DNA of 26,389 nucleotides from a virus. The stretch is from positions 1 to 26,389 of the IMG/VR virus record IMGVR_UViG_3300037840_000214; one strand, written 5' to 3'. This document shows, one piece after another, positions 3,136-20,858 of the stretch; the first letter of the stretch is position 1; every line of letters begins with the position of its first letter. The notes below the pieces were generated by a model, which was not told the DNA's origin, did not search any database, and saw nothing but the letters and a program-made list of their open reading frames with translations. Both the position numbers and the translations under genes were made by a program.

Positions 3136-3484
3136 ACGTTATCCCGAGGGCCTGTCTGAGCGCTTGATGGGTTGATTGATGATACCCGATCCAGTTTTCG
3201 AAGTCATTTTCTTGTGTAAGGTCTACCTCTGAAAGGTCGATAGATGTTAGCCCAAGGATCGAGTCCAGCAAAGCGTGGGCCTGCTGATGCGATTGAACGA
3301 TAGACGGTTGGTTTACGCCAGCAGTTAGAAACTGCAAAAAATCGTAATCTGGGATATTTATGGTTGGTGTCTGCTGGGCTAAAACCTGTACAAACTGAAG
3401 GTGTTCTCGATGGTGGCCGATATCCCAAGCCCCATAGCCAGGATAATCTTTGAAGTTCACGATATCAGGCGAGAACTGCGCCAT
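3134..3484 (-). CDS. Hypothetical phage protein, 116 aa
   Basis: I do not recognise this protein. It is acidic and rich in His and aromatic residues (DYPGYGAWDIGHHREHLQF near the N-terminus; GYHQSTHQALRQALGIT at the C-terminus) with no membrane segment. The ATG at 3484 forms a TGATG overlap with the stop of the nozzle-like gene; a GTG one codon upstream is possible and would add one residue. It ends in TAG, in the same frame as the downstream Pro-rich gene, so readthrough would fuse the two. The six or more histidines in a small virion-operon protein are notable but not diagnostic of metal binding. Confidence 0.75.
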   Translation of the reverse strand: MAQFSPDIVNFKDYPGYGAWDIGHHREHLQFVQVLAQQTPTINIPDYDFLQFLTAGVNQPSIVQSHQQAHALLDSILGLTSIDLSEVDLTQENDFENWIGYHQSTHQALRQALGIT

Positions 3485-5664
3485 CACCTTTGATTCCCGA
3501 CGTTGGCTTCCTGATAATCGATCGTGATATTGGTGAGCGTAAACCCGACCGGCGCGATGCCGGTGATGGTCGCGCCGAGATAGCGGCCCGACACGTTCGC
3601 CGGGTTGTTAGAAAATAGATAAGCAAAGAACTTCGCCAGCACATTTTGAACCGCAGACTGCGAGCCTTCGTCGCTTTCCAGTTTTACCGTGATCGTGTTG
3701 GCGATGCCGCCGGTGATGGCCCACCCAGCATGCTGTGTGCGCTTGCGCTGCACCGCGTTGCCGTGATGGGTGAGAGCGGTTCGCGCCGTGAACGCCACCG
3801 GCGTGGTAGGGCTGCTCAATATTTCCGTGATGTCAGAACCGGAAGACGCGAAGGTCTGATTTTGACCGCTTGCCAATGTTGAGGCCGTCGTAATGGCGAC
3901 AAGCGAATTTCCCTGACTGCACACAAACCATTTCTTGCCGTTGAACGTGATCAGGATAGACCGCTCGACCGACAGCGGGTCGATGTACCTGACCAGCCAC
4001 ACCGCGTTATGGATGTTGTTAAAATCGGCGATGGCAAACTGCGGCTGCTGGGTGAAATCGATCAGCTTGAAGATGCCGTCGAGATCGTCGCTGATCTTCT
4101 GCACGCTAGAGCCGAACACCGCATAGATACCGTTGGTGTTGGCAAACATGAAGACGCGGTTGAACGATCCGCAACTGCGCGGATAGATCGTGCCCTGATC
4201 GGACGAAAGCGTGAGGATCGTAAATAGCGTGACGTTACCGGCCGCGTTGAGAGAGATATTTCCGATCTGCTTGACCGACTGGTCGCCCATGATGAAGAGA
4301 TAATTATTGTAGTTACGCAGCGCCGTGATCGCGTGCGTAAGATCGGCATCTCCGATGATGAGCGATCCGGAAGCGTTCGCCGCGTTGAAGTCGTCGAAAC
4401 CCTGGGTGCCGGTGTATTGCAGCAGCCGCGCTCCGCCGAGAAACACTCTGCCCTGAAACACTGCAAGCGTCGTTCCCGCCGTGACAAACGGCCAGACATG
4501 CGCGGTCGCGGTTGCTCCGGTGCCGCCGCCGCCGGAAAATCCGACCGTTAGGCTATCGCTAGCGAGATACCCGGCACCTGGATTGGTGAGTGTGAGTGTC
4601 GCAACGCCGGAGCCGCCGATAACCGCTGCGGCCGCTGCTCCGGTGCCACTACCAACATTAGCAAAAGAAACGGTAGGAGCAGATGTATAGCCGCCGCCGC
4701 CGTTCGTAACCGTAATCGACAAGACTCTGCCGTTGCCAACTGTACAAGTTGCCGTAGCCTGTATCCCGGAACTGCCACCGCTAAATGTAACGGTTGGGGC
4801 TGAGGTATATCCTGATCCGATAGAAGTTATTGCAATGCTCTGCACGCCGGGGAAGCCGCCGCCGCCGCCGCCGGGGCTCATAGAGGTAACAACGGCCGCC
4901 GCGCCCGTACCGCCACCGCCGGAAAAGGATATTGATGGAAAATGAATATCGTCGCTGTAACTTCCTGTACTGGTTAGCGTTAGCGACGTGAGGCCCCGCT
5001 GGTCTATATTTGCGGTGGCCGCCGCCCCGGTGCCGCCCCCGCCGGCGAACACAACGGTAGTCGCAAGAGAATACTGAGAGCCTCCTGTTATTACGTTCAC
5101 CGCATCTACGGCTGGCGTTTGAATCGTTGCAACGGCCGTCGCACCATGTCCGGACCCGCCGGAAATCGTAACCGTTGGTACCGACGTATATCCGGTCCCG
5201 GAATTGGTCAGCGTGAGCACCGGAGACACACCGCCTTCTTGGATAAATATCGAGCCGTTCCATGCGCTATATCCGGCGGTCGGATCGTTGATCAGGACAA
5301 ACTCGGATTCCCACGTCGTCATGTCGGGATTTGTGAACGAGCCCGGCGGCGCGAACCTGGTTGAAACTCCGGTGGCCAGTATCGTGTCCCACCCGCTACC
5401 GGCCGACGTGAAGGATATGATGTAATCGATGTTGTTTATGTTGGCGAAATATTGAGCCGTGATCGTCTCGGAAATGCTGGTCAACGAGGGTGACGACCCC
5501 GGCACCGTCGTCAGGTTATTCGGCGCGATCGGCTGCAGGTTTTCAAGCCACGCCAGTTCCTTTTCGGAAAGAGCTTGGCGTACGCTCTGCGTATTCATCT
5601 TCTCGAAATTCTCGAAGACGATGTATTTGGAGGCGGCGCGCTGGGTCTCGCCGGGACGCGCCAT
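3484..5664 (-). CDS. Tail nozzle / DNA-stabilisation-like protein with six Gly-rich repeats
   Basis: This 726-residue protein lies directly after the head-tail adaptor gene. An N-terminal part (residues 1-147) precedes about six tandem units of 33-40 residues (148-390) of the form 'TLTNxGxGYTSAPTVTFSGGGGTGATATA'. After the repeats, residues 391-726 read like a beta-propeller: VFQGRVFLGGARLLQYTG, LFIMGDQSVKQIGNI, GIYAVFGSSVQKISDDLDG, SILITFNGKKWFVCS. This resembles the nozzle or gp10-type stabilisation proteins that close short phage tails, and the position next to an adaptor agrees. The repeats would then be an insertion into the N-terminal domain, possibly exposed on the particle. The nozzle call is inference; a tail-fibre or decoration role is the main alternative. 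Confidence 0.6.
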   Translation of the reverse strand: MARPGETQRAASKYIVFENFEKMNTQSVRQALSEKELAWLENLQPIAPNNLTTVPGSSPSLTSISETITAQYFANINNIDYIISFTSAGSGWDTILATGVSTRFAPPGSFTNPDMTTWESEFVLINDPTAGYSAWNGSIFIQEGGVSPVLTLTNSGTGYTSVPTVTISGGSGHGATAVATIQTPAVDAVNVITGGSQYSLATTVVFAGGGGTGAAATANIDQRGLTSLTLTSTGSYSDDIHFPSISFSGGGGTGAAAVVTSMSPGGGGGGFPGVQSIAITSIGSGYTSAPTVTFSGGSSGIQATATCTVGNGRVLSITVTNGGGGYTSAPTVSFANVGSGTGAAAAAVIGGSGVATLTLTNPGAGYLASDSLTVGFSGGGGTGATATAHVWPFVTAGTTLAVFQGRVFLGGARLLQYTGTQGFDDFNAANASGSLIIGDADLTHAITALRNYNNYLFIMGDQSVKQIGNISLNAAGNVTLFTILTLSSDQGTIYPRSCGSFNRVFMFANTNGIYAVFGSSVQKISDDLDGIFKLIDFTQQPQFAIADFNNIHNAVWLVRYIDPLSVERSILITFNGKKWFVCSQGNSLVAITTASTLASGQNQTFASSGSDITEILSSPTTPVAFTARTALTHHGNAVQRKRTQHAGWAITGGIANTITVKLESDEGSQSAVQNVLAKFFAYLFSNNPANVSGRYLGATITGIAPVGFTLTNITIDYQEANVGNQR
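4495..5223 (-). repeat. Six-unit Gly-rich protein repeat (virion surface-type module)
   Basis: Within the nozzle-like gene, about six units of 33-40 codons recur. Each contains a beta-strand-like 'LTLTN.G.GYTSAPTV.FSGG' half and a 'GGTGAAATA' half. Copies differ in sequence, so this is a diverged tandem repeat rather than a recent duplication. The same module occurs in two neighbouring genes. Confidence 0.8.
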
Positions 5665-5667
5665 GGC

Positions 5668-6642
5668 TCACCTCGACACGCGACGCTGGAAAGTTTTATG
5701 ATAGGGGTTTGGAATTCGCACGCCGCCGGCGCCGATGATGATCTTGGGCACCCGCGCCGAATAAAGCTTCAGCATGAACTCGGCCTGCTCAAAATTCTGC
5801 AGCTTCAACAGGCATAGATAGGCGGCATAGTATTGCACCGCGTCCGACCACGGCTGCACGATCTGGGTATCGGTATCGCCGGGGTTGAGCAACGGCAGCG
5901 GGATACACAGCACGTCCCATTCGGTAACGTAGGGCTGGTCGGGCGGCGGCTGAATCAGCACGTAGCCCATCTGTTCGTGGATGGTCCAGATCAGGCCGCG
6001 CTGGGTGAAAAACAACTGGCTGCGCATGTAGGCCTGAAACAGCGTGAAGCCGCGGTAGCGCAGCGAGTAGCGCTGGTTGCCCCAGAGGTAGCTGATCGAG
6101 ATCACGTTGAAGACGTTGTTGAACATTGTGGCCGTTGCAGTTGCCCCGGTACCGCCGCCGGGATCGGTGATGGTGACCGCCGGCGGCTGGGTCGCGGAGG
6201 GGCTGGTCGAGGGCAGCGCCGGCTGGTAGCCAGAACCCCATTGCGTCACGTTGATCCCGGTGATGACGCCGTTCGCAATGACTGGCGCGGCCAGCGCCGG
6301 GATCGATCCGGTGGGACCGGCCGCGATCGTGACGGCGGTGGCCGGCGAATAATTCGCGCCGCCGTTCGTGACATTAACGCCGACCACCTGTCCGTTGAGA
6401 CCGTTGGGACCGTTGAGCGGGTAGATTTCCTGGTTCTGGATCGTGGAAACCGGCGTGTATAGGCCGGTATTCGGTGCGTTGTTCGGCGGCGCGAGAAAGG
6501 CCTGCCGGCAGCAATGGAAATCCAGCGAGGTCGCGACGCGGGCGTTATTGATCGCAGCCGTCAGTTCGGACGGCGAGAAATCCGCATTGGTCTGGTCGTG
6601 GACCAGGAATTGCACCTGCGTGATATAATCAGACAGCAGCAT
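5668..6642 (-). CDS. Head-tail adaptor-like protein with inserted repeat domain
   Basis: The 324-residue protein opens with LLSDYITQVQFLVHDQ and FSPSELTAAINNARV. This is the usual beginning of short-tailed phage adaptor (connector) proteins, which form a helical ring under the portal. Residues 84-172 interrupt that fold with two Gly-rich units (VVGVNVTNGGANYSPATAV and GGGTGATATATMFNNVF) like those in the neighbouring nozzle-like protein. The adaptor-type sequence then resumes (LRYRGFTLFQAYMRSQ, VTEWDVLCIPLPLL, AVQYYAAYLCLLKLQNFEQA) with a C-terminal helix pair typical of the family. It lies three bases upstream of the nozzle-like gene and overlaps the O-antigen-ligase-like gene by 14 bases. 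The adaptor assignment is by motif reading and is moderately firm. Confidence 0.65.
   Translation of the reverse strand: MLLSDYITQVQFLVHDQTNADFSPSELTAAINNARVATSLDFHCCRQAFLAPPNNAPNTGLYTPVSTIQNQEIYPLNGPNGLNGQVVGVNVTNGGANYSPATAVTIAAGPTGSIPALAAPVIANGVITGINVTQWGSGYQPALPSTSPSATQPPAVTITDPGGGTGATATATMFNNVFNVISISYLWGNQRYSLRYRGFTLFQAYMRSQLFFTQRGLIWTIHEQMGYVLIQPPPDQPYVTEWDVLCIPLPLLNPGDTDTQIVQPWSDAVQYYAAYLCLLKLQNFEQAEFMLKLYSARVPKIIIGAGGVRIPNPYHKTFQRRVSR
6127..6393 (-). repeat. Two Gly-rich repeat units inserted in the adaptor gene
   Basis: Residues 84-172 of the adaptor-like protein hold two units of the same 'GVNVTNGGANYSP...' and 'GITGINVTQWGSGYQ...GGGTGATATA' type as the nozzle-like repeats. The flanking sequences form a continuous adaptor-like protein without them, so this looks like a domain insertion. 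Confidence 0.7.
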
Positions 6643-7498
6643 TGACCCGCTTTCCCGTCATCGCCGCCTGATAATGCCCGCACAGGATATGCCCCGCAAG
6701 CACGGCCCCGATGATCGCGGTGACCGGCGTATAGAGCGGGAAGAAAAACACTCCCGCCGTAGCAAATCCTGCGAAGGCCGGCCAGTAGGGTGATTCGGTG
6801 CGGGTGAGCGCCGCGCCGTAGATCAGGTAGGCCGGGGCGGCCCAGATACCGAGCTCGTAGGCCAGTTGAAGATAGTCGTTATGGACGTGGCCGGGGTAAT
6901 GCACGCCGTCCGGGGCCTGGAACAGCACATTCGCGAACGATCCGGGGCCGTGCCCGGACCATTGGAGGTCGTGCCATGCGGCGCTCCAGATCATGATTCG
7001 GTCGAGGTCGGAAGACCCCATGAAGGTGACGGAGACCGCGGCCGCGACGAGCAGCGTCAATACAGCGCCCTTCCAGCCGAAGGCTCGGCCGGCTAGCCCG
7101 ATCGCCAGCACCAGATAACCGCCGCGCGAATGTGCCAGCAACAGGCCAGGGAGCATGGCCGGGACATAGCGCCAATCCGCACGCTCTAGCGATACGATGA
7201 CGAGAGCGATGGCGACGGCCTGGATCGCCGAGTTATAGAGCAGGCCGGCCGGTAGATTGTAGCTGGCCGGGCCCCAGCCGGACCACTGGCCGACCGCCAC
7301 CAGCGAGGAAACCGATAGCCCAATCGCAAGCCCGCGAAACAGCGGACGAAGCGAGGTCGCCGCACCCAGCCAGAACGCCATTGCGAGAAACAGGATAAAC
7401 CATGACCCGGTGAGCTCGCGTGCTGGTATCTGGAAATACGCGATAAGGCCGAAACTCAGCCAGTTGAGGATGGGCAGGGATGCGCCAAGCCAAAACAC
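6629..7498 (-). CDS. O-antigen ligase/polymerase-like membrane protein (short Wzy/WaaL type)
   Basis: The 289-residue protein is strongly hydrophobic, with roughly seven to nine membrane segments. It carries hallmarks of the O-antigen ligase domain: HSRGGYLVLAIGL (about 123-135), RIMIWSAAWHDL (167-178), GHGPGSF (182-188) and, in the periplasmic loop, HVHNDYLQLAYELG (204-217), whose H-N-D is the conserved signature. These enzymes polymerise O-units or transfer O-antigen to lipid A core in the inner membrane. It is shorter than the usual 400 or so residues, lacking several N-terminal helices. I place the start at GTG 7498, which overlaps the stop of the upstream gene and has GGAG nine bases before it; a longer frame reaching 7579 lies wholly inside the upstream gene. 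Its setting among virion genes suggests receptor alteration or superinfection exclusion, which is inference. Confidence 0.75.
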   Translation of the reverse strand: MFWLGASLPILNWLSFGLIAYFQIPARELTGSWFILFLAMAFWLGAATSLRPLFRGLAIGLSVSSLVAVGQWSGWGPASYNLPAGLLYNSAIQAVAIALVIVSLERADWRYVPAMLPGLLLAHSRGGYLVLAIGLAGRAFGWKGAVLTLLVAAAVSVTFMGSSDLDRIMIWSAAWHDLQWSGHGPGSFANVLFQAPDGVHYPGHVHNDYLQLAYELGIWAAPAYLIYGAALTRTESPYWPAFAGFATAGVFFFPLYTPVTAIIGAVLAGHILCGHYQAAMTGKRVNAAV

Positions 7499-7499
7499 A

Positions 7500-7919
7500 T
7501 CAGGCGGCTCCGGCCTTGCGCCGCGACGGAACGGCCGGGATTTCCTCGGGCATCGGGTCGGCCGGGATCGGCGAATCAAGGTCGGGCTTTTCCTCGACCA
7601 TCTTATAGATCACCGGCTTGATATCGAGCTTTTCGAACAGCTCGGCCGCCAGCGTCTTGCCGCTTTCGCCGACGCGCAGATGTGCAGGCGTATTCCAGCC
7701 CTGCCGTTTGGAGACGTGCTTGAACATCGCCTCCTGCGTCACGTCGTAGGCGTAGCCGAACATGTGCGCGGCCATATCCAGCGGGAAATTGTCGCTCTTG
7801 CCGGGCTCCAGCGTCACCGGCACCCCGTCATGGCGGTCGGTAAAGGCGGTGGTGGCGTTGTTGGTCACCCGGACGTAATGGATTCGGATATCGGGCGCGC
7901 CGAGGTCTGGCTTTTCCAT
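7500..7919 (-). CDS. Hypothetical virion-operon protein, 139 aa
   Basis: I do not recognise a family. The first half is beta-rich with a loop 'HDGVPVTLEPGKSDNFPLD', a pattern seen in small phage proteins of head-tail regions. The middle has AAHMFGYAYDVTQEAMFKHV. The C-terminus is acidic and proline-rich, ending in a basic RRKAGAA tail. It begins four bases after the stop of the preceding 71-residue gene and ends at the start of the O-antigen-ligase-like gene. A minor structural or assembly role is the best guess. Confidence 0.75.
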   Translation of the reverse strand: MEKPDLGAPDIRIHYVRVTNNATTAFTDRHDGVPVTLEPGKSDNFPLDMAAHMFGYAYDVTQEAMFKHVSKRQGWNTPAHLRVGESGKTLAAELFEKLDIKPVIYKMVEEKPDLDSPIPADPMPEEIPAVPSRRKAGAA

Positions 7920-8146: not shown

Positions 8147-8542
8147 TCAGTAATATTCGATGAATGTGATCGGGGTCGAGATGCTGGAGGCGATCACGTT
8201 GATCTGGGCGCCGACATTGGCTCCGGCACCCGTATTCGGGACTCCTTGCGTCGAACCGATGGTCCAGCAAGAGGTGACGAGGTTGCCGGCCGCCAATACC
8301 CGACCCGTGGTCAGAGACACCGGCGTCGGCGTCGTCCCGAGCGTAAAGGTCACCGTGTTGGTGGCGTGTTCGTTGCAGATCGTTACGCCCTTGCGGCCGG
8401 GGTTGGCGGCCAGCGCCGCCATGGTGGCAGTCGCGCCGCCGGTAACCGTGGTCATGCTCGGGCCCAGCGCGGTCTGGGCTACCGCAGCCCCGATATAACC
8501 GAGCAGTCCGGCGATAGTGGCAAGAAAGGCGATCCGTTTCAC
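8147..8542 (-). CDS. Secreted small protein with signal peptide (virion operon)
   Basis: The 131-residue product has a classical signal peptide, KRIAFLATIAGLLGYIGAAVA followed by Q, with predicted cleavage after residue 22. The mature part is beta-rich and small-residue-rich, with a core 'NPGRKGVTICNEHATNTVTF' and 'GAQINVIASSISTPITFIEYY'. That core resembles small capsid-decoration-like phage proteins in which a segment of this kind precedes a beta sandwich. It starts with GTG, overlapping the upstream stop (GTGA). A signal peptide is unexpected on a virion component, so it may instead act in the host periplasm, for example in superinfection exclusion. Both readings are inference. Confidence 0.7.
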   Translation of the reverse strand: MKRIAFLATIAGLLGYIGAAVAQTALGPSMTTVTGGATATMAALAANPGRKGVTICNEHATNTVTFTLGTTPTPVSLTTGRVLAAGNLVTSCWTIGSTQGVPNTGAGANVGAQINVIASSISTPITFIEYY

Positions 8543-9679: not shown

Positions 9680-10690
9680 TCAGATGTTCAAAAATGCAAG
9701 ACCGTCGAACTTGCCGTGCGCCTTGCACTTGACATCGACGAGTTCAAGCAGGCTCAGGATCGCGCCGATATAGCCCAACTGGTTGTTCGGCAGCGTCGAT
9801 TCGAACCCGGTGAAGGAGAACGCCGCCCGCTCATGCAGGAACAGGCTCAAGTAATTGGTATTGATCAGGTAGAGCGTGCCCTCGGGGCAGTAGGGGTCGG
9901 CGTAGAACGGCACGCCGGCCACGTCGAGCGCGCGGAACAGCGACTCGATCTTCTTGTCGGCGCCGAACGCCGAGCCGGGGGTGACGTTATAGCGCTCGGC
10001 CGAGGTAAAATCCTGTGCCAGAAGCGTCCAGGTGCCAAACCCCATGATGCCGATCGTCGGCATTTCTCCGGTGGTCTTGGAAACCTGGCTGATGTACTGC
10101 AGCATCAGGTTGCGGGTCGGCGTGGTGGTGCCGCCGTTGTGGACGTAGGTCGATTTCCAGAACGTGTTGGTAGTGCGCGACACACCGCCATAGGTCACCG
10201 CGAAGGTGCCGTCATCGATCGCGGCCGGAAGCCCGATCAATTGCTGGGTATTGGCGACGTTGTTGAACAGCGAGGTCGCGAAAGTGTCGATCGTGACGTT
10301 GGTTGAATCGTTCATGCGGGCTTCGATCAGCGGCACCACCGAATAATCGAGCTGGACCAAACCTTCCATTCCGAGGAAGGGGATGGTCGAGACGAATGCC
10401 TTGAGGTCGAATTCGGCGTTCTGGATGCCGGGCTGCACGCCGGGCTGCTGGAACGAGCCGGAATAATCCACCCACTGGCCGGAGACCATCGGGGTACCCT
10501 GCAGCGGCGCGGTGATCGGCGACAGGCCGCCGGAGGCGACTTGCGCCGAGGAAAGCAGGGCGGCCATCAAAGGCGCCGATTTCCAGAGCTGAACATAAAC
10601 GCGTGGCATGAAGGCGCGGCGCACAACTGCAGATAGCTCCGCAGAAATTGCTCCACTAGCGGGAATGATTCCCTGTCCGAATATCGGCAT
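9680..10690 (-). CDS. Major capsid protein
   Basis: The 336-residue product has the size, placement and composition of a phage major capsid protein. It follows a scaffold-like gene and precedes a decoration-like gene. Sequence features include an early helix region (ISAELSAVVRRAFMPRVYVQLWKSAPLMAALL), a mid-protein segment (EARMNDSTNVTIDTFATSLFNN) and a late 'VAGVPFYADPYCPEGTLYLIN' strand-loop-strand, which reads like the P-domain end of HK97-fold coat proteins that place a 'G.P...D' motif before the C-terminal strands. The start has AAGGA about ten bases upstream. No protease gene is seen, so the scaffold may not be cleaved in the usual way. Fold assignment is inference. Confidence 0.8.
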   Translation of the reverse strand: MPIFGQGIIPASGAISAELSAVVRRAFMPRVYVQLWKSAPLMAALLSSAQVASGGLSPITAPLQGTPMVSGQWVDYSGSFQQPGVQPGIQNAEFDLKAFVSTIPFLGMEGLVQLDYSVVPLIEARMNDSTNVTIDTFATSLFNNVANTQQLIGLPAAIDDGTFAVTYGGVSRTTNTFWKSTYVHNGGTTTPTRNLMLQYISQVSKTTGEMPTIGIMGFGTWTLLAQDFTSAERYNVTPGSAFGADKKIESLFRALDVAGVPFYADPYCPEGTLYLINTNYLSLFLHERAAFSFTGFESTLPNNQLGYIGAILSLLELVDVKCKAHGKFDGLAFLNI

Positions 10691-12154: not shown

Positions 12155-12670
12155 ATGACCTTCATCAGGGTACCCCGCCCTGTTTTTATATGCAACTGCC
12201 ATAATCACGCGTGGACAAACCTCACAAGAGGTTACGTGACCTTTGTGTCCGTCGAAGACGTTGCTCTACTTCGACAGAGAGCGTGGACCGCAGCAGAAAA
12301 TAAGCGGAAAACTTTGATCTACGTTCGATCCACCTATACCAAACTTCATCGTGAAATCGTAGGCGCGCCGCCGGGGATTCCGGTAGATCACGAGAACGGG
12401 AACGGTCTTGATAACCGGCGCCCAAATATAAGAATTTGCACCACACAGCAAAATAGCCGGAATACCCCGAAGCATCGCGATGGGTCAAGCAACTTCAAAG
12501 GAGTTTGCTGGCTTAACGCGATCCAAAAATGGAAGGCAGAAATATGCGTAAACTACAAACGCATGTGGTTAGGTCACTTCGATGACGAGGTAGAGGCCGC
12601 GACGGTTTACGATAAAGCCGCTCTCAAACACTTCGGTCCATACGCCCGACTCAACTTTCCTCAAGCGTGA
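12155..12670 (+). CDS. HNH endonuclease with AP2 DNA-binding domain (homing-type)
   Basis: The 171-residue protein has an HNH nuclease core at about residues 65-103 (H65; [18 protein letters not shown] with D78-H79 and N91; CTTQQNSRN) and an AP2 domain at about 111-168 ([36 protein letters not shown]). This is the usual arrangement of free-standing homing endonucleases in phages, which cut intron- or gene-free alleles and spread with the flanking DNA. A strong GTAGGAGG lies before the ATG. It is opposite in strand to the portal and head genes and its last ten bases overlap the 3' end of the portal gene, as expected of an insertion that kept the portal intact. The N-terminal 60 residues are unassigned. 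Confidence 0.85.
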
Positions 12671-14421
12671 GCCCCGTGTCCCTTGCCGTTCGGCTTGGCG
12701 CCGGGCTCCGGCAATCCCATCTTGGCGCGCATCGCTTGGGCCTGCGCCTTCTGTTTGTTGCGCGCTCGCAAACCGTGAATCAAATTATCCCGGTCAGGCG
12801 GATTTAGCATTCTCAGCAATGCCTCCTGGTCGATGGACTGCGACTTGAACAGGAACGCGGCCATTTCCTTGGTGTCGTCGGCGAACAGCGGCGAGTGCGA
12901 ATGGCCGGCTACGCGCAGCGCGTACTCGCCAGCCATGTTGGCGTAGTAGAAGGGATCGCCTTCCTTGCCGTCCTCCTTCGGGTCCGGCGTGATCGGCTCG
13001 TCGTTGTTGCGCATATTGAGTTTGAAGGTGAGATCGCCGAGCCGCACCAGCGGCGCTTCCAGACGAATCGCGGCTTTCTTGACCCGCCCCGAGCCGGTCG
13101 ATGACAACTGCTTGGCGTGATCCTTGGAGCGAACGCCCGCGGTGCCCTTGCCCTGCAGCACTTCGGTCAGCCCCGAGGCCTCCACAAACAGGTTGCCGAT
13201 CGACATATAGTCGGAGAAAATATCCGGCGGCATCTGCGGATTTAGTTCCTTGATCGAGGCTTGCGGCAACTGGTCCATTACCCAGCTATCGGCGCCGCCG
13301 AACGCCTCCATCTTTTCGTCCGACAGACCCATGAAGCCCGAGCCGATCCGAGGCGGGTAGGCCTGCTTGTCGAGGATGTCGTGAATTTGCTCCAGCCGCT
13401 CGTTGGACCATTCCTGCAAGGGGATTAGCGATTCGATGTGCGCCTTGCCCCAGAAATACTCGTAGATGTTATAGGGCCGCACCAGCGTATAGGGATGCTC
13501 GCGCGGGAAGAACGGATTGCATTTGGTGTTATAGAACGCTTCCTGCTGTTTCTTCTGCGCCTTGAAGCCTTCGCTGCGCTTGAGCACGTCGATAGTCTTC
13601 TTGGAATCGGAAATCACCAGCCCCGGCGACACCACCCAGAACACCCGGTAGTCCTCGCATTCGTCGTCCCAGATCGTGACCTCGTGGAATTCTACCAGCG
13701 GGCGATCGACCTTGGCGTTGTAGCTGGCGCGCGCCTGATAGGTCGGATTGATCGATCCGGAGATATTGCCGGAGACGTTCTCCCCGCCGGTCGCGGAGAT
13801 GATCATACGGGTGATCAGTTCGGGGAAGGGCGATTCGAACGGCGTGTTGACGACGGTCAAATCCTTGATCTTCTCTCCCATACCGGCGCGCTGCAGGCGC
13901 TGGCAGGCATTGTCGTAATCGATGAAGTAGGCATGGACGAAGGCCTGCTGGCTTTCCAGTTCGGTGATTTCCTCGGAGAATACCCCGAACTGCCACGGCA
14001 TGATGATCTTGCAGGTCGGATCGGAATTCACGTCCGACCAGCCGCTTTTGAGGATGATCGAATCGAAGATCAGCGAGCCAATGATGGCATCGCCGAAGAA
14101 ATCGAACATGCCGGCATCACGGAAGTCGTTGTTGAAGGTGTCCTGCGCCGCCATGTACTGCTTGACCACCATGTCGGGCGAATTAAGCGGAGCGGAGAGC
14201 GAGAACTGCGCGTGGTCCGGCGAGTACAGGAACGATGCCACGAGATCGAGATGCGATTCGATCCGGTTATAGATGACGTCGTTGGCGTCGGAGCCGCCGT
14301 ACAGGAAATACTGCTTGCGGCGGTCGTACAGGTCCTTGCGGTCCTTTTTCGAGTTCATGCAGATATCGATCACCCACTGCACGTATTGCGATTGCCGGTG
14401 CGGATCGTCGGGGATGATCAT
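12661..14421 (-). CDS. Portal protein
   Basis: The 586-residue protein is a podovirus-type portal, the twelve-subunit ring through which the terminase packages DNA. Support comes from size and sequence. The N-terminus is charged and helical ([20 protein letters not shown]). The core includes [18 protein letters not shown] and [20 protein letters not shown], followed by [20 protein letters not shown], a segment where portals have their clip/stem region. A late '[19 protein letters not shown]' crown-like helix follows, then a basic tail ([15 protein letters not shown]). It overlaps the zinc-ribbon gene by four bases (ATGA). The gene is complete; the plus-strand HNH gene abuts its end without disrupting it. 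Confidence 0.85.
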
Positions 14422-14885
14422 GTCGAGCCCTTATACGACGCCTCGACCGCGGTGTTGCTGCGCATGCTGGGGAACGATCCGTTGGGGGCGAGCGCGTTGC
14501 CGGGCGCGGCCTTGACCTTGAAGCCGACCTTGTTGGCGGTCGGCACGCATTGGGCACCGACCGCCGGATTAATCGCGGCCGAGAAACCCCCGGAGAAGGT
14601 GTGGACGTTGGCGGGGTTGCGATCCGACGGGGCGGGCGGCAGGTTGACCTTCTTTGCCGCCCGCCCGCGATCCGCCGAATTCATATCGCCCATCTTGAAC
14701 ATATCGGCGAGCGCCCGCAGTTCGGTATCGGCTGATTTGGCGCCGTTCCCGATGTGGCCGCCGGCAGGCTGCCACTCGACCCGCGCGCATTTACAGTTCG
14801 GGCACGACGGGTTAGGTTCCCAGGCGTCGAATGGGGCGCCGCAGCGGGTATTCAGGCAACGCCAGGTTCGTAATATTCCGGTCAT
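14418..14885 (-). CDS. Zinc-ribbon hypothetical protein, 155 aa
   Basis: The N-terminus holds two CxxC-like pairs, WRCLNTRCGAPFDAW (C9, C14) and PSCPNCKCARVEW (C28, C31, C33), that can form a zinc ribbon. The rest is low-complexity (HIGNGAKSADTELRALADMF and a Pro/Ala/Asn-rich tail). It is the first minus-strand late gene after the plus-strand cassette and overlaps the portal start. Placement before portal, with a zinc ribbon, suggests a packaging or DNA-binding accessory; it is not a recognisable small terminase. Function unproven. Confidence 0.65.
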   Translation of the reverse strand: MTGILRTWRCLNTRCGAPFDAWEPNPSCPNCKCARVEWQPAGGHIGNGAKSADTELRALADMFKMGDMNSADRGRAAKKVNLPPAPSDRNPANVHTFSGGFSAAINPAVGAQCVPTANKVGFKVKAAPGNALAPNGSFPSMRSNTAVEASYKGST

Positions 14886-14921
14886 GGGGCGTCAGCATAA
14901 GGCTGCGCGCTAGGTTTATCA

Positions 14922-15386
14922 ATGGTCGCAGATTTTAGTAAAGAAATGGCAAAGGGATGGACGCTAGAAACCTTGCAGGTCCATCTATCGGCATTAGCCG
15001 CCGCCGATGAAAAATTCATGCAGGAGCGCGACCGGCGCTACTCCGAGGTAAATATAGAACGCGAGAAGGCGCTGAAGATCAAGGAAGAGGCCGATAAAGC
15101 AGCGCTCGGGTTGGCACGGGAAATCCAGAGTTACAAGGACGAAAAAGCCAACCAGCTTCGTGAACAGATCACCGGCGAACGCGGAAGTTTTGCCAGCAAG
15201 GATGACCTGGCCGCCGCGATCCGCGAAGTCAGCGCTTCGATCTCACCGCTGACAGCATTCGTCCAGAGTTCGGGCGGCGCGTCCAAGCAATCCTCCAATT
15301 CGGTGACAATGATTGTCGCGTTTGCAACGGTGGCGCAAGTCATCATTGTCGCGCTTGGCGTAATTCTGGCGCGCATAGGGCACTGA
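14922..15386 (+). CDS. Coiled-coil protein with C-terminal membrane anchor
   Basis: The 154-residue product has a long charged helical region (about 15-105, e.g. QERDRRYSEVNIEREKALKI) and one C-terminal membrane segment (about 128-150, VTMIVAFATVAQVIIVALGV) followed by a short RIGH tail. This tail-anchored topology puts the coiled coil on the cytoplasmic side, unlike an i-spanin, which has an N-terminal anchor. It heads the plus-strand cassette and starts 37 bases from the divergent zinc-ribbon gene, so promoters for both must lie in that gap. A role in lysis or membrane signalling is possible but not shown. Confidence 0.7.
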   Translation: MVADFSKEMAKGWTLETLQVHLSALAAADEKFMQERDRRYSEVNIEREKALKIKEEADKAALGLAREIQSYKDEKANQLREQITGERGSFASKDDLAAAIREVSASISPLTAFVQSSGGASKQSSNSVTMIVAFATVAQVIIVALGVILARIGH

Positions 15387-15387
15387 C

Positions 15388-15576
15388 ATGTCGCACCCTC
15401 GCTTGAAATTCAGGTGCGAGCGTATCCGGCAGAACAACGGCATCGTCGAGATATTTTTTACCAAGGACGACGGCATTCAGGACGAGCATGTTCTGCTAAA
15501 TCTGGTGGTTGATCCCGACTCTTACGTCCAGGGCGAGCATTACTGGCTTACGATCGAGCCGGCCTTCCCGCACTAG
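15388..15576 (+). CDS. Hypothetical small protein, 62 aa
   Basis: The product (MSHPRLKFRCERIRQNNGIV onward) is short, beta-rich and without a membrane segment; it ends LTIEPAFPH. AGGG stands about eight bases before the ATG, and the start follows the upstream stop by one base. Recognisable only as a conserved-looking small phage protein; no function can be given. Confidence 0.6.
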   Translation: MSHPRLKFRCERIRQNNGIVEIFFTKDDGIQDEHVLLNLVVDPDSYVQGEHYWLTIEPAFPH

Positions 15577-15635
15577 GCTATGGAACTTTATCGGCGTAGG
15601 CTGGTTGGCGGTTACCCCCTCGGAGGGTTTTCGTC

Positions 15636-15881
15636 ATGTCATGTTTCTCGCTGGCGTTCTGGGAACAGGTCTGCATCCTCATCGTCATCATCATTGCGCT
15701 GTGGTCGCTGATCCAGTTGCTGCTGCCCTACGTCATGCAGTTTTTGCCGGCGCTCGTGGTCGCCATTATCAGGATAGTGGTCTGGGCGATCATCGCCATC
15801 ATCTGCATCTACATCATCTTCGGTCTTCTCGCGTGCCTGCTAAGCGCCGGAGGTGGCTTGGGTTTACACGGCTTTCACTAG
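15636..15881 (+). CDS. Two-span membrane protein (holin candidate)
   Basis: The 81-residue protein is almost entirely hydrophobic, with segments at about 12-30 (VCILIVIIIALWSLIQLLL) and 42-68 (VAIIRIVVWAIIAIICIYI onward). Small two-span proteins of this size in phage genomes are often holins, which perforate the inner membrane at lysis. No endolysin gene is adjacent, so this is a candidate only. GGAGGG nine bases before the ATG is a strong ribosome site; part of it can pair with the preceding CCCCCTC (15613-15619). Confidence 0.65.
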   Translation: MSCFSLAFWEQVCILIVIIIALWSLIQLLLPYVMQFLPALVVAIIRIVVWAIIAIICIYIIFGLLACLLSAGGGLGLHGFH

Positions 15882-17632: not shown

Positions 17633-20317
17633 TTACGGTTGCACGGTGATGTTGGCCCGCTTGAGATACCCCATGATGATGCGATCGAGCGGCGGGGTGC
17701 CGCCCTTGGCTTCAATATCCGATGACCTCTCCATGGTCAGGCCGAGCGCCCGCACCTTCGGCTGTACCCAGGTATTATAGGCCTGATAGGCCATCGCGGC
17801 GCCCATCACGCGATCGTCCTTGGCGCGGCCCTCGGCGCCGATGTGGCCGCCGTCGCTGACGATGCGGCGCATTTCGTCCAAGAGCGGCATCGATCGGGGG
17901 ATCATGCGGTGCAGTTCGATCGCGTTCTTGAACTGGTTCATGGCGCGGCGCTTGAGGTCTTCCGTCGTCTTCCACTGATACAAAAGTTCGCCGCCGCCGG
18001 GGTTGTCCATGCGCTTATAAAAATAATGCCGCATGTTCTGCAGGATATTTCGGATGTGGTAGTTCTCGTCATGCGGGCGAATTTCGGAGGCGAAGCGCCG
18101 CACCTTTTCCAGTTCGTCGAACACGGCCTGGCCCGGCCCGTTCATTTCCAGAATCGGCATAAGGAACGTGACACCGTAATATCCCGCAAGGTGGGCGAGC
18201 ACCCAAGCACATTGATACGTGCTTGGCTGTGGCGAACAATATTCAGCCACTTGAACGAGACAGTCAGCGTAACATCGCCAGATGCTAATAACCGTTCGAT
18301 CCGCTTCATCTGAGCTTCCGTAAGCGGGATCGCAGCCGAGAGCGTAATATCCAAATCTTGAGGCATCTTCGTAAATCCTCAATTCGGCGCGGGGGTCTTT
18401 GACCTGCCGCAGTTCGGTCTCCTCGAACTTCATACCGAGTTTATAGCGGAATGTCTGGAACGCGCATTTCTTGGCAACCCGCATGCACTCGCTCATGGCA
18501 TCGACTGTGAAGAATTTCGACCCCGTGGCCACGAACGCATCGCTTTCGGTCCACGGATATTCCTGGTCCATCGACGACTGGTCGCCGTCCTTTTCGCTCG
18601 CCATGTGCCAGCGGTACCAGGCGATCTGCTGCAGGCTGATCTCGAACGAATAGAGTTCGCGGACCTCGCGCACCCGCTTGCGCTCCAGCGGCGTGAGCGT
18701 GCTCTTGATGCCGTCCGGCATATAGTTGAGAAAAAACGGGTGGCTTACCGGGAGCTGGTTTCGTTCGTCCCGCCACCAGCCGATGAAGATGGCTTTCTTG
18801 GTAGGGTCGTCCTTGGTGACTTCCCACATGTCCCAGAAGTGGTTGAAGCCGTTCGCTGTGGTTTCGTAGATCTGCAGTCGATGCGGATAGAGCGACGATG
18901 TTTGTGAGCGGAATTCCGAAAGGTCGTCACCGTTACCGTAAAAGGCGCATTCGGTGGCATGGACAAAATTTGCTGCACCACCGCGACCGAGACCGCCCTT
19001 TCTAACTTCTGAAGTTCCGGCGATGAGATAGCGGAACTTGCTGGCGTTTTTGAGAATGAGAAGGTTTCGGTTATGCCGAACGTAGTTGACCCGGTATTTG
19101 GTCGGGGTTTCCGCGAAAAAAACTTCAACTGTGGCTCTGAAGTCATCGCGCATCTCCTCCTTGTGGGTGATGAAGACCCCCAATAGCCCCTTGTGAGAGA
19201 ACGCCCAGAACATGTCGAGCGCGAGGAAGAATGAGGAGTTATGCGAGACGAAGCCGTTTGCAATATAAGTTTTATCGCTGGTCTGCACGTCCACCATCTC
19301 TCGCTCATCTAGTGGCACTATTTTCACTATCTTGGAATTACCGATAGCGTCGGCGCCTTTGCCAGGGAGTTCTCTATTTTCCCAAAATCGCTTCCCGATA
19401 AAACGAGACGGGCGAGTTTGCCCGATCAAACGAAACAGTTCATCCATCCGATTGAAAACTAATTTTGGAACGGGTTTCCTTCCAAATTTAGATGGTCTAT
19501 CGGGGCCATCCGATTCAACCCGATGATGATACCCGCGCTCATTTGCGTAACTGACCATCCGATTCCAAACCGGACCGGGAAGTTGTGCTGCGCATAGGCT
19601 AGTGCCCGATCGATTGGCATTAGAGATAGACCCCTCGCCATCCAGGATACCGCCGAACCAACCATCCTCGATATGTCCCGGCGACCATGGCTGAGTGATC
19701 CATCGAATCTTATGTCCTATCTGGAGGCGTTCCAGTTTCGACTTTGCCTGTATCGATCGCCAGCGCCACACACCTTGGCTATTACGGGTAAGCCATCGAT
19801 GCTTCCCCGTGCATATTAGCGTCCGGCCATCGTCAAATTCAATTTGATACGCCCGCTCTCGGACGCGACCGATAGCCTCTACCAAAGTAGTGCGCATTTT
19901 TCTCGCACTGCCTTTCCCCTTCGTAAGGGGAAATTCATCGACGCCCACGAGCGCATCACCAACTTTCAAATCGGCAATACGGCACCACGTATAATCCGCC
20001 TTCAATACCGGAGTATCGGGGTCGAGGCACGCGCCGAGCTGCCGCGCTTTAAGCACGACGAACGTGGTGATGCCGCGCGACAGGCCTTCCTCGATCTCGG
20101 CCAACAGATAGCGCTGCGAGCCTAGCAGGCGGAACGGCACCAGCCCGTAATCCTTGCTCTGCACTTTCAGGTGCGAGAGGAATTTCAGGAACCGCTCGGT
20201 CGGGAACGGCGCGACGCCCTGATATTCTAGCGTAAAGGCGGCGTCGAAACCGAGCGGGTCTTGTTCGTCGTCGTCGATCGTCAATAGGTTAATCCTCGCC
20301 GCGTTCGTTCCCACCAT
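17633..20317 (-). CDS. terL: Terminase large subunit, interrupted by an intein
   Basis: The 894-residue precursor should splice to about 630 residues. It is the packaging motor: ATPase plus RNase-H-like nuclease. I chose ATG 20317 (MVGTNAARINLL); a longer frame to 20458 lies inside the recombinase gene. Split Walker A: RQLGA (92-96) continues after the intein as SSFFLAL (361 on). Walker B is FVHATECAF (E456), and the coupling motif is YETTANG (484-490). Nuclease acidic residues are D663 in GCDPAYG, E724 in ILEMNG and D834/D835 in DDRVMGAA. All are present, so the spliced enzyme should be active. No small terminase gene was recognised nearby. The gene ends twelve bases before the adhesin-like gene. 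Confidence 0.9.
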   Translation of the reverse strand: MVGTNAARINLLTIDDDEQDPLGFDAAFTLEYQGVAPFPTERFLKFLSHLKVQSKDYGLVPFRLLGSQRYLLAEIEEGLSRGITTFVVLKARQLGACLDPDTPVLKADYTWCRIADLKVGDALVGVDEFPLTKGKGSARKMRTTLVEAIGRVRERAYQIEFDDGRTLICTGKHRWLTRNSQGVWRWRSIQAKSKLERLQIGHKIRWITQPWSPGHIEDGWFGGILDGEGSISNANRSGTSLCAAQLPGPVWNRMVSYANERGYHHRVESDGPDRPSKFGRKPVPKLVFNRMDELFRLIGQTRPSRFIGKRFWENRELPGKGADAIGNSKIVKIVPLDEREMVDVQTSDKTYIANGFVSHNSSFFLALDMFWAFSHKGLLGVFITHKEEMRDDFRATVEVFFAETPTKYRVNYVRHNRNLLILKNASKFRYLIAGTSEVRKGGLGRGGAANFVHATECAFYGNGDDLSEFRSQTSSLYPHRLQIYETTANGFNHFWDMWEVTKDDPTKKAIFIGWWRDERNQLPVSHPFFLNYMPDGIKSTLTPLERKRVREVRELYSFEISLQQIAWYRWHMASEKDGDQSSMDQEYPWTESDAFVATGSKFFTVDAMSECMRVAKKCAFQTFRYKLGMKFEETELRQVKDPRAELRIYEDASRFGYYALGCDPAYGSSDEADRTVISIWRCYADCLVQVAEYCSPQPSTYQCAWVLAHLAGYYGVTFLMPILEMNGPGQAVFDELEKVRRFASEIRPHDENYHIRNILQNMRHYFYKRMDNPGGGELLYQWKTTEDLKRRAMNQFKNAIELHRMIPRSMPLLDEMRRIVSDGGHIGAEGRAKDDRVMGAAMAYQAYNTWVQPKVRALGLTMERSSDIEAKGGTPPLDRIIMGYLKRANITVQP
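19238..20029 (-). mobile_element. LAGLIDADG intein in the terminase ATPase motif
   Basis: An in-frame insert of 264 residues begins with Cys (CLDPDTPVLKADYTWCRIAD) and ends VSHN, followed by the extein Ser. Splicing motifs are complete: block A at the Cys, block B TLICTGKHRWL with TxxH, block F REMVDVQTSDKTYIANGF, block G FVSHN. The endonuclease part shows one clear LAGLIDADG-type motif, GWFGGILDGEGSI (residues 219-231 of the precursor). Intein plus endonuclease is short (LAGLIDADG inteins are usually 350 or more residues), so the endonuclease may be reduced. Removal restores RQLGA-SSFF, the Walker A loop. Terminase P-loops are a known intein site. Confidence 0.92.
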
Positions 20318-20385
20318 ATGTACCGATGCCACCCCCACCAATATGGATTGGCAAACGAACTTCTGATGATGGGAAGTCTGCTCAT
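20281..20385 (-). CDS. Possible 34-residue Trp-rich peptide, tentative
   Basis: An ORF begins with ATG overlapping the recombinase stop (ATGA) and runs 34 codons into the first bases of terL in another frame. It encodes MSRLPIIRSSFANPYWWGWH followed by a basic tail. The coupled start is suggestive, but the tryptophans come from a GGTGGGGGTGG run that also supplies the terL ribosome site, so the frame may be open by chance. Confidence 0.25.
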   Translation of the reverse strand: MSRLPIIRSSFANPYWWGWHRYIWWERTRRGLTY

Positions 20386-20858
20386 GCGCCGGCCGCGATT
20401 TCTTCAGCCGTCGGCGGCACCAGCTTGCGCTTCTTGGGACGCCCGCCGATCCGGCCACGGGCCCGCGCCGCGGCGAGTCCGGCCAGCGTCCGCTCGACGA
20501 TGATATCGCGCTCGAACTCGGCGAAGCAGGCGAGGATGTTGAACATCAGCTTTCCGGTGACCGTGGTTGTGTCGATCGGCTGGGTGATGCACTTGAGATC
20601 GACACCTTTGGTTCGGCAGGCCTCGGCGATCTGGCCAAGGTGCACGGTGGAGCGCGCAAGCCGGTCGAGTTTCCAGAACACGAGGATGTCACCGCGTCTA
20701 AGGAAGTTAAGGCAAGCAGCAAGTTGCGGCCTCTCGCGGTCAGTACCACTGGCCTCGTCGATGAAGATTTTCGTGCAGCCGTATCCTTTGAGCGCGTCAA
20801 ATTGCAACTCCGGGCTCTGGTCGATGGTCGAAACGCGGGCATACGCCACAACAGTCAT
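20382..20858 (-). CDS. Small serine recombinase (resolvase/invertase family), C-terminally truncated
   Basis: The 158-residue product carries the catalytic domain of resolvases and invertases: VVAYARVST with catalytic S10, DEASGTDRERPQL, the KLDRLARS motif (63-70) and AEFERDIIVERT (113-124). These enzymes recombine DNA at specific sites through a 5'-phosphoserine link. ATG 20858 is preceded by GGAG about nine bases upstream; longer frames cross other genes. The protein stops after GGRPKKRKLVPPTAEEIAAG, where family members normally continue into a helix-turn-helix of about 40 residues, which is absent here. It may act with another DNA-binding partner, or be a degraded invertase. No inverted sites or invertible segment were found. 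Confidence 0.85.
   Translation of the reverse strand: MTVVAYARVSTIDQSPELQFDALKGYGCTKIFIDEASGTDRERPQLAACLNFLRRGDILVFWKLDRLARSTVHLGQIAEACRTKGVDLKCITQPIDTTTVTGKLMFNILACFAEFERDIIVERTLAGLAAARARGRIGGRPKKRKLVPPTAEEIAAGA

Follow-up and report, generated by a model that had tools for sequence, protein, structure and literature searches.

Surface polysaccharide is altered by Wzy_C enzymes in phages described before, namely D3, epsilon15, VarioGold and Acinetobacter prophages. The conversion genes of epsilon15 are located near its tailspike gene. The Wzy-beta O-antigen polymerases of D3 and epsilon15 are phage-encoded Wzy_C membrane proteins. That of D3, in which the Arg and His of the shared motif are essential by mutagenesis, works in the lysogen, where its partners are an O-acetylase and Iap, an inhibitor, and it excludes other phages (PMC4815439). 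VG_p25 of VarioGold, a phage of a soil bacterium, is a multi-transmembrane Wzy_C protein of 411 residues, encoded next to the lysis genes on the other strand, within a putative moron cluster that is outside the virion operon (PMC9658991). The Acinetobacter prophage gene wzy2Ph is located near a depolymerase gene and near the prophage end, not among head and tail genes, and alters capsule linkage in lysogenic capsule conversion (PMC13228068). Protein O-oligosaccharyltransferases (PglL, PglS and TfpO) have a GT-C_B fold, a Wzy_C domain and a catalytic His; PglS depends on the Arg and His of the same motif, the His by mutagenesis (PMC12800693). WaaL and RodA have been grouped together (PMC12800693), and FtsW and RodA share the GT-C_B superfold.

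The 26,389 nucleotides of soil-phage DNA analysed here, referred to as the window, make up a linear virus record of IMG/VR (IMGVR_UViG_3300037840_000214). They carry a Wzy_C-type gene, here called wzy, between virion genes. The features used below were as follows, in window coordinates.

6629..7498, minus strand: wzy, membrane protein of Wzy_C/WaaL type, 289 residues from a GTG start (open reading frame, motifs, Pfam, predicted fold)
7118..7129, minus strand: SRGG motif, residues 124-127; R125 aligned to WaaL chain position 191
6998..7000, minus strand: codon of R167 (DLDRIMIW), aligned to WaaL chain position 265
6866..6889, minus strand: HVHNDYLQ motif, residues 204-211; H206 aligned to WaaL chain position 313
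7500..7919, minus strand: upstream neighbour, 139 aa, conserved virion-cluster gene (position, relatives)
5668..6642, minus strand: downstream neighbour, 324 aa, putative tail/connector protein (gene order; PHROG match largely via repeats)
3484..5664, minus strand: putative virion structural protein, 726 aa (PHROG match largely via repeats)
8147..8542, minus strand: Ser/Thr-rich protein, 131 aa, with a predicted Sec signal peptide; homologues directly adjoin wzy in several relatives (site c, below)
9680..10690, minus strand: major capsid protein (phrog_9953, E 2e-28)
12661..14421, minus strand: portal-type head-tail adaptor (weak phrog_332 match)

The earlier note on this DNA had given the coordinates and length of wzy and three motifs. 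All held on the minus strand (GTG at 7498, stop ending at 6629), the third motif, GHGPGSF, occupying residues 182-188. Its placement of the gene between virion genes also held, by position and by PHROG matches of the neighbouring genes (major head protein; weak portal-type connector). The packed minus-strand cluster runs from the capsid gene through a 304-aa gene, small genes (one of 131 aa) and the 139-aa gene to wzy, followed by the 324-aa and 726-aa genes. The tail/connector label for the last two was inferred from gene order because their PHROG matches were largely through repeats. The note had described overlaps on both sides of wzy. Downstream, the 3' end overlaps the start of the 324-aa gene (6642..5668) by 14 bases; upstream there is instead a 1-base gap from the 139-aa gene (TGA 7502-7500, GTG 7498-7496), retained in both same-site relatives.

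A crude consensus scan found no sigma-70-like promoter on the minus strand in the region scanned just upstream of wzy. The single minus-strand promoter-like site between 3.0 and 11.5 kb was at 3207, downstream of the gene. With tight junctions and no upstream promoter-like site, wzy appears to lack the usual marks of a moron gene, namely its own promoter and a position apart from the late operon. Elsewhere in the window, an HNH-like ORF (12155-12670, plus strand) is located on the opposite strand between the portal and capsid genes, and a similar ORF occupies the same place in L002 (2372-2881, minus strand). An intein is probably present in the 941-aa terminase ORF (17633-20458, minus strand), where Intein_splicing matched at 22 bits, under the cut-off; the terminases of L004, L006 and L039 (615-616 aa, 87-88% identity) are without it. 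Beside the terminase is a small serine resolvase (PF00239; 20382-21038, minus strand), also present in 6 of 27 relatives (7 of 28 records), which is possibly a lineage-specific recombination device.

The profile search for the O-antigen ligase domain, proposed in the earlier note, gave a divided result: PF04932 (Wzy_C) matched the wzy frame at 33.2 bits in a six-frame search (cut-off 31.7), and the protein at 21.6 bits (E 2e-4), below cut-off, in plain hmmscan. A viral family was assembled from two viral scans and 43 sequences, including the window protein, were aligned. Among the first 33 viral homologues, 26 matched Wzy_C at E 0.01 or better; PF04932 was the only domain found in the Pfam scan of these 33 members, with no PglL_A and no Wzy_C_2. 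The window protein has about 8-9 predicted transmembrane helices. An AlphaFold2 model built from the 43-sequence alignment had pLDDT 89.3 and pTM 0.88. A first model from nine sequences was poor (pLDDT 51) and was left out of the fold search. Foldseek of the model against the PDB returned one significant match, WaaL (7tpg, E 9.4e-5, probability 1.00), which VIA-align superposed over 253 residues (Z 16.0, 4.2 Å); next were the SEDS proteins FtsW and RodA (Z 7.3-9.8). The 43-sequence profile also matched WaaL in the PDB by sequence (E 1.7e-8), where a nine-sequence profile had found nothing. Hand counting in this alignment places R125, R167 and H206 opposite residues 191, 265 and 313 of the WaaL chain.

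H206 and N207 were invariant among the 43 viral homologues, and R125 and R167 were at least 90% conserved. The family thus has the Arg pair and the catalytic-type His of the periplasmic motif, and the wzy model has the GT-C_B fold of WaaL. WaaL of Cupriavidus metallidurans (PDB 7tpg/7tpj), which carries an HAHND motif, differs in length (about 410 residues against 289) and is 17% identical; wzy has fewer N-terminal residues, is phage-encoded and is located in a structural operon. That wzy encodes an inner-membrane glycosyltransferase of the GT-C_B-fold, WaaL/Wzy_C-type class is well supported, in agreement with the membrane protein type first proposed. O-antigen ligases, polymerases and protein O-oligosaccharyltransferases are inseparable by sequence, the fold and motif being common to all three. 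Searches of BFVD gave no significant match, and NCBIfam gave one match at chance level only. A tblastn search of plasmids with one family member found nothing.

The window protein and those of two same-site relatives keep an MFWLG start and are without about 50 N-terminal residues of the other viral homologues. The dN/dS of wzy was 0.21-0.34, like that of neighbouring virion genes (approximate, with dS near 1 and close to saturation), and the gene is under purifying selection. Because three contigs share the short form and because of this dN/dS, an assembly error or a decaying gene is unlikely. A chance hydrophobic ORF was rejected on the dN/dS, the confident fold and the two same-site relatives. 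The N-terminal loss may affect acceptor choice, by analogy with PglS, since its N-terminal residue N28 is close to the position that matches the lipid A site in WaaL (PMC12800693).

In relatives whose capsid protein is similar, wzy homologues occupy three sites.

Site a, between virion genes as in the window: window, L002/L005, L003
Site b, just upstream of the terminase: L004, L006, L039, L122
Site c, after internal virion genes and mostly beside a small protein with two transmembrane segments: L137, L138, L139, L141, L145, L147

Twelve near-complete close relatives, each 38 kb or longer, have a capsid protein 84% or more identical; seven of them carry a homologue, and none was detectable in the other five. 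Relatives whose capsid proteins are 84-95% identical either have the homologue at another site or do not have it. At 73-80% capsid identity none of seven contigs of at least 38 kb carried one. In L100 the site-c neighbourhood is present without wzy. The earlier note had asked whether the gene is conserved at this locus: it is not fixed there, relatives carrying it elsewhere or not at all, and wzy is an accessory, dispensable gene. The note had counted absence from relatives, together with degeneration of the HND residues, against its reading; absence was seen in some relatives, and the HND motif was intact. In the stretches read from two INPHARED capsid relatives, about 55% identical, no O-antigen gene is annotated.

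A single acquisition of wzy for the whole capsid family was rejected (AU test, p 5e-6). The test did not reject a common origin of the genes at sites a and b (p 0.25), and in the tree the homologues of these two sites group with those of another phage lineage. The homologues in this capsid family therefore came from at least two sources, and phages exchange the gene. In L004, L009, L014, L016, L017 and L039 the portal gene points the opposite way to the capsid gene; in the window the two are co-oriented. A contig scan with the capsid protein found only one contig from a metagenome-assembled genome, too weak for naming a host: L106, a 42.6-kb Acidobacteriaceae contig with a related capsid gene (76%), which is either a hint of the host or a binned phage.

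Homologues of wzy also adjoin portal, capsid or tail genes in phages of unrelated capsid families (phrog_212, phrog_334 and phrog_10), and further lineages have them beside structural genes.

L127-L130, L133, L136, L165: wzy after a capsid gene (phrog_212) and a connector (phrog_332); PHROG tested on L127
L144: wzy between portal (phrog_156) and capsid (phrog_334)
L146: wzy one gene past the capsid (phrog_10)

This recurrent placement in virion operons across unrelated soil phages suggests late remodelling of the host surface. A Sec signal was predicted in the gene directly upstream of wzy at 17 of the 32 loci and in 50 of 356 other late genes (Fisher p 1e-6, from a crude predictor and non-independent loci). 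In most lineages a signal-peptide protein is found on one side of wzy, the window clade being an exception. The wzy-adjacent signal-peptide proteins, a set picked after inspection, contained 25% Ser/Thr against 15% in other late genes. Eight contigs (L127, L130, L133, L136, L139, L145, L170, L183) have unusually many late genes with a predicted Sec signal and small Ser/Thr-rich products. L147 encodes a 909-aa late protein (13093-15819) that begins with a hydrophobic stretch and has an esterase domain (PF00756) at its C terminus.

Our candidate reading, the most likely one and held with moderate confidence, is that a late-made wzy enzyme alters host surface polysaccharide and so lowers re-adsorption to the infected cell and its debris. 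Presumably co-transcribed and translationally coupled with the virion genes, wzy would be expressed late. Its product would sit in the inner membrane and use a host glycan linked to undecaprenyl pyrophosphate, with H206 as the putative base and R125 and R167 handling the pyrophosphate. The glycan would then be joined, on the periplasmic side, to a further chain or an acceptor. A host surface polysaccharide, either O-antigen or exopolysaccharide, would be polymerised or attached differently, and the same or related phages would re-adsorb less to the altered cell and its debris. The interpretation in the earlier note is supported in part: the enzyme type, the intact HND motif and the tightly packed structural operon held, and late production, action on O-antigen and receptor masking are putative.

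Against late action, the functionally studied phage Wzy_C proteins that were found act in lysogens (PMC4815439, PMC13228068), and lysogenic conversion is also predicted for VarioGold (PMC9658991). By ordinary lysogenic conversion, wzy would be expressed from the prophage through its own or a read-through promoter, change the surface polysaccharide and keep other phages out, with its location in the late operon incidental; a distant promoter, or one that went unrecognised, could drive such a conversion gene. On the opposite strand the window carries an HTH_3 regulator, and a tyrosine integrase was over cut-off in 2 of 28 records, with one more below it. However, no tyrosine integrase was found in the window or in a 42.7-kb contig of the same site, wzy is tightly packed on both sides with no promoter-like site directly upstream on its strand, and homologues are inside structural operons in many lineages; we consider conversion rather unlikely. 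Among the window genes scanned, no iap- or oac-like counterpart of the partners of the D3 enzyme was recognised. It is far less probable, indeed very improbable, that wzy is a passenger or degenerate fragment, inactive after the loss of N-terminal helices and retained by chance. The missing 50 or so residues and the patchy presence among relatives fit such a history, but the deletion is common to three contigs, selection is as strong as on neighbouring virion genes, the putative catalytic residues are intact and the fold is confident.

A different acceptor would be involved if wzy were a dedicated protein O-oligosaccharyltransferase, transferring a host lipid-linked glycan to Sec-exported, Ser/Thr-rich phage proteins of the same operon, as TfpO/PglL do for pilins. 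TfpO-type genes adjoin the gene of their substrate. Wzy_C and the Arg/His active site are common to these enzymes (PMC12800693), and the signal peptides and Ser/Thr content of the immediate upstream proteins point the same way. In the window the immediate neighbours are without a signal peptide, the signal-peptide protein being further upstream. That 131-aa protein is also present in relatives without wzy, L100 has the site-c neighbourhood without the gene, and the substrate link is putative. Ser/Thr richness in a set chosen after inspection may merely reflect beta-structured phage proteins, the signal-peptide predictor is crude, and the family is without PglL_A and Wzy_C_2. Protein glycosylation is attractive but not specifically supported in the window, and we regard a dedicated enzyme of this kind as quite unlikely. 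The broader idea that, in several unrelated capsid lineages, a structural-operon GT-C_B enzyme glycosylates Sec-exported Ser/Thr-rich phage proteins and so coats the infected cell with glycoprotein specified by the phage is a long shot of slightly lower standing.

A literature search that covered few subscription papers turned up no description of a Wzy_C gene within the head-tail operon of a phage. What is new here is the recurrent virion-operon placement, the separate viral clade and the N-terminally shortened form. The viral clade matches no PHROG and was not found in INPHARED by tblastn with three queries (the window protein, at E 0.01, and two other members), and it recurs in the head-tail operons of phages whose capsids are unrelated. 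If wzy acts late, phages put resources into altering the surface of a cell that they will shortly lyse. Late action would bear on how progeny avoid being wasted on debris, and the genes and residues given here could be used for testing it.
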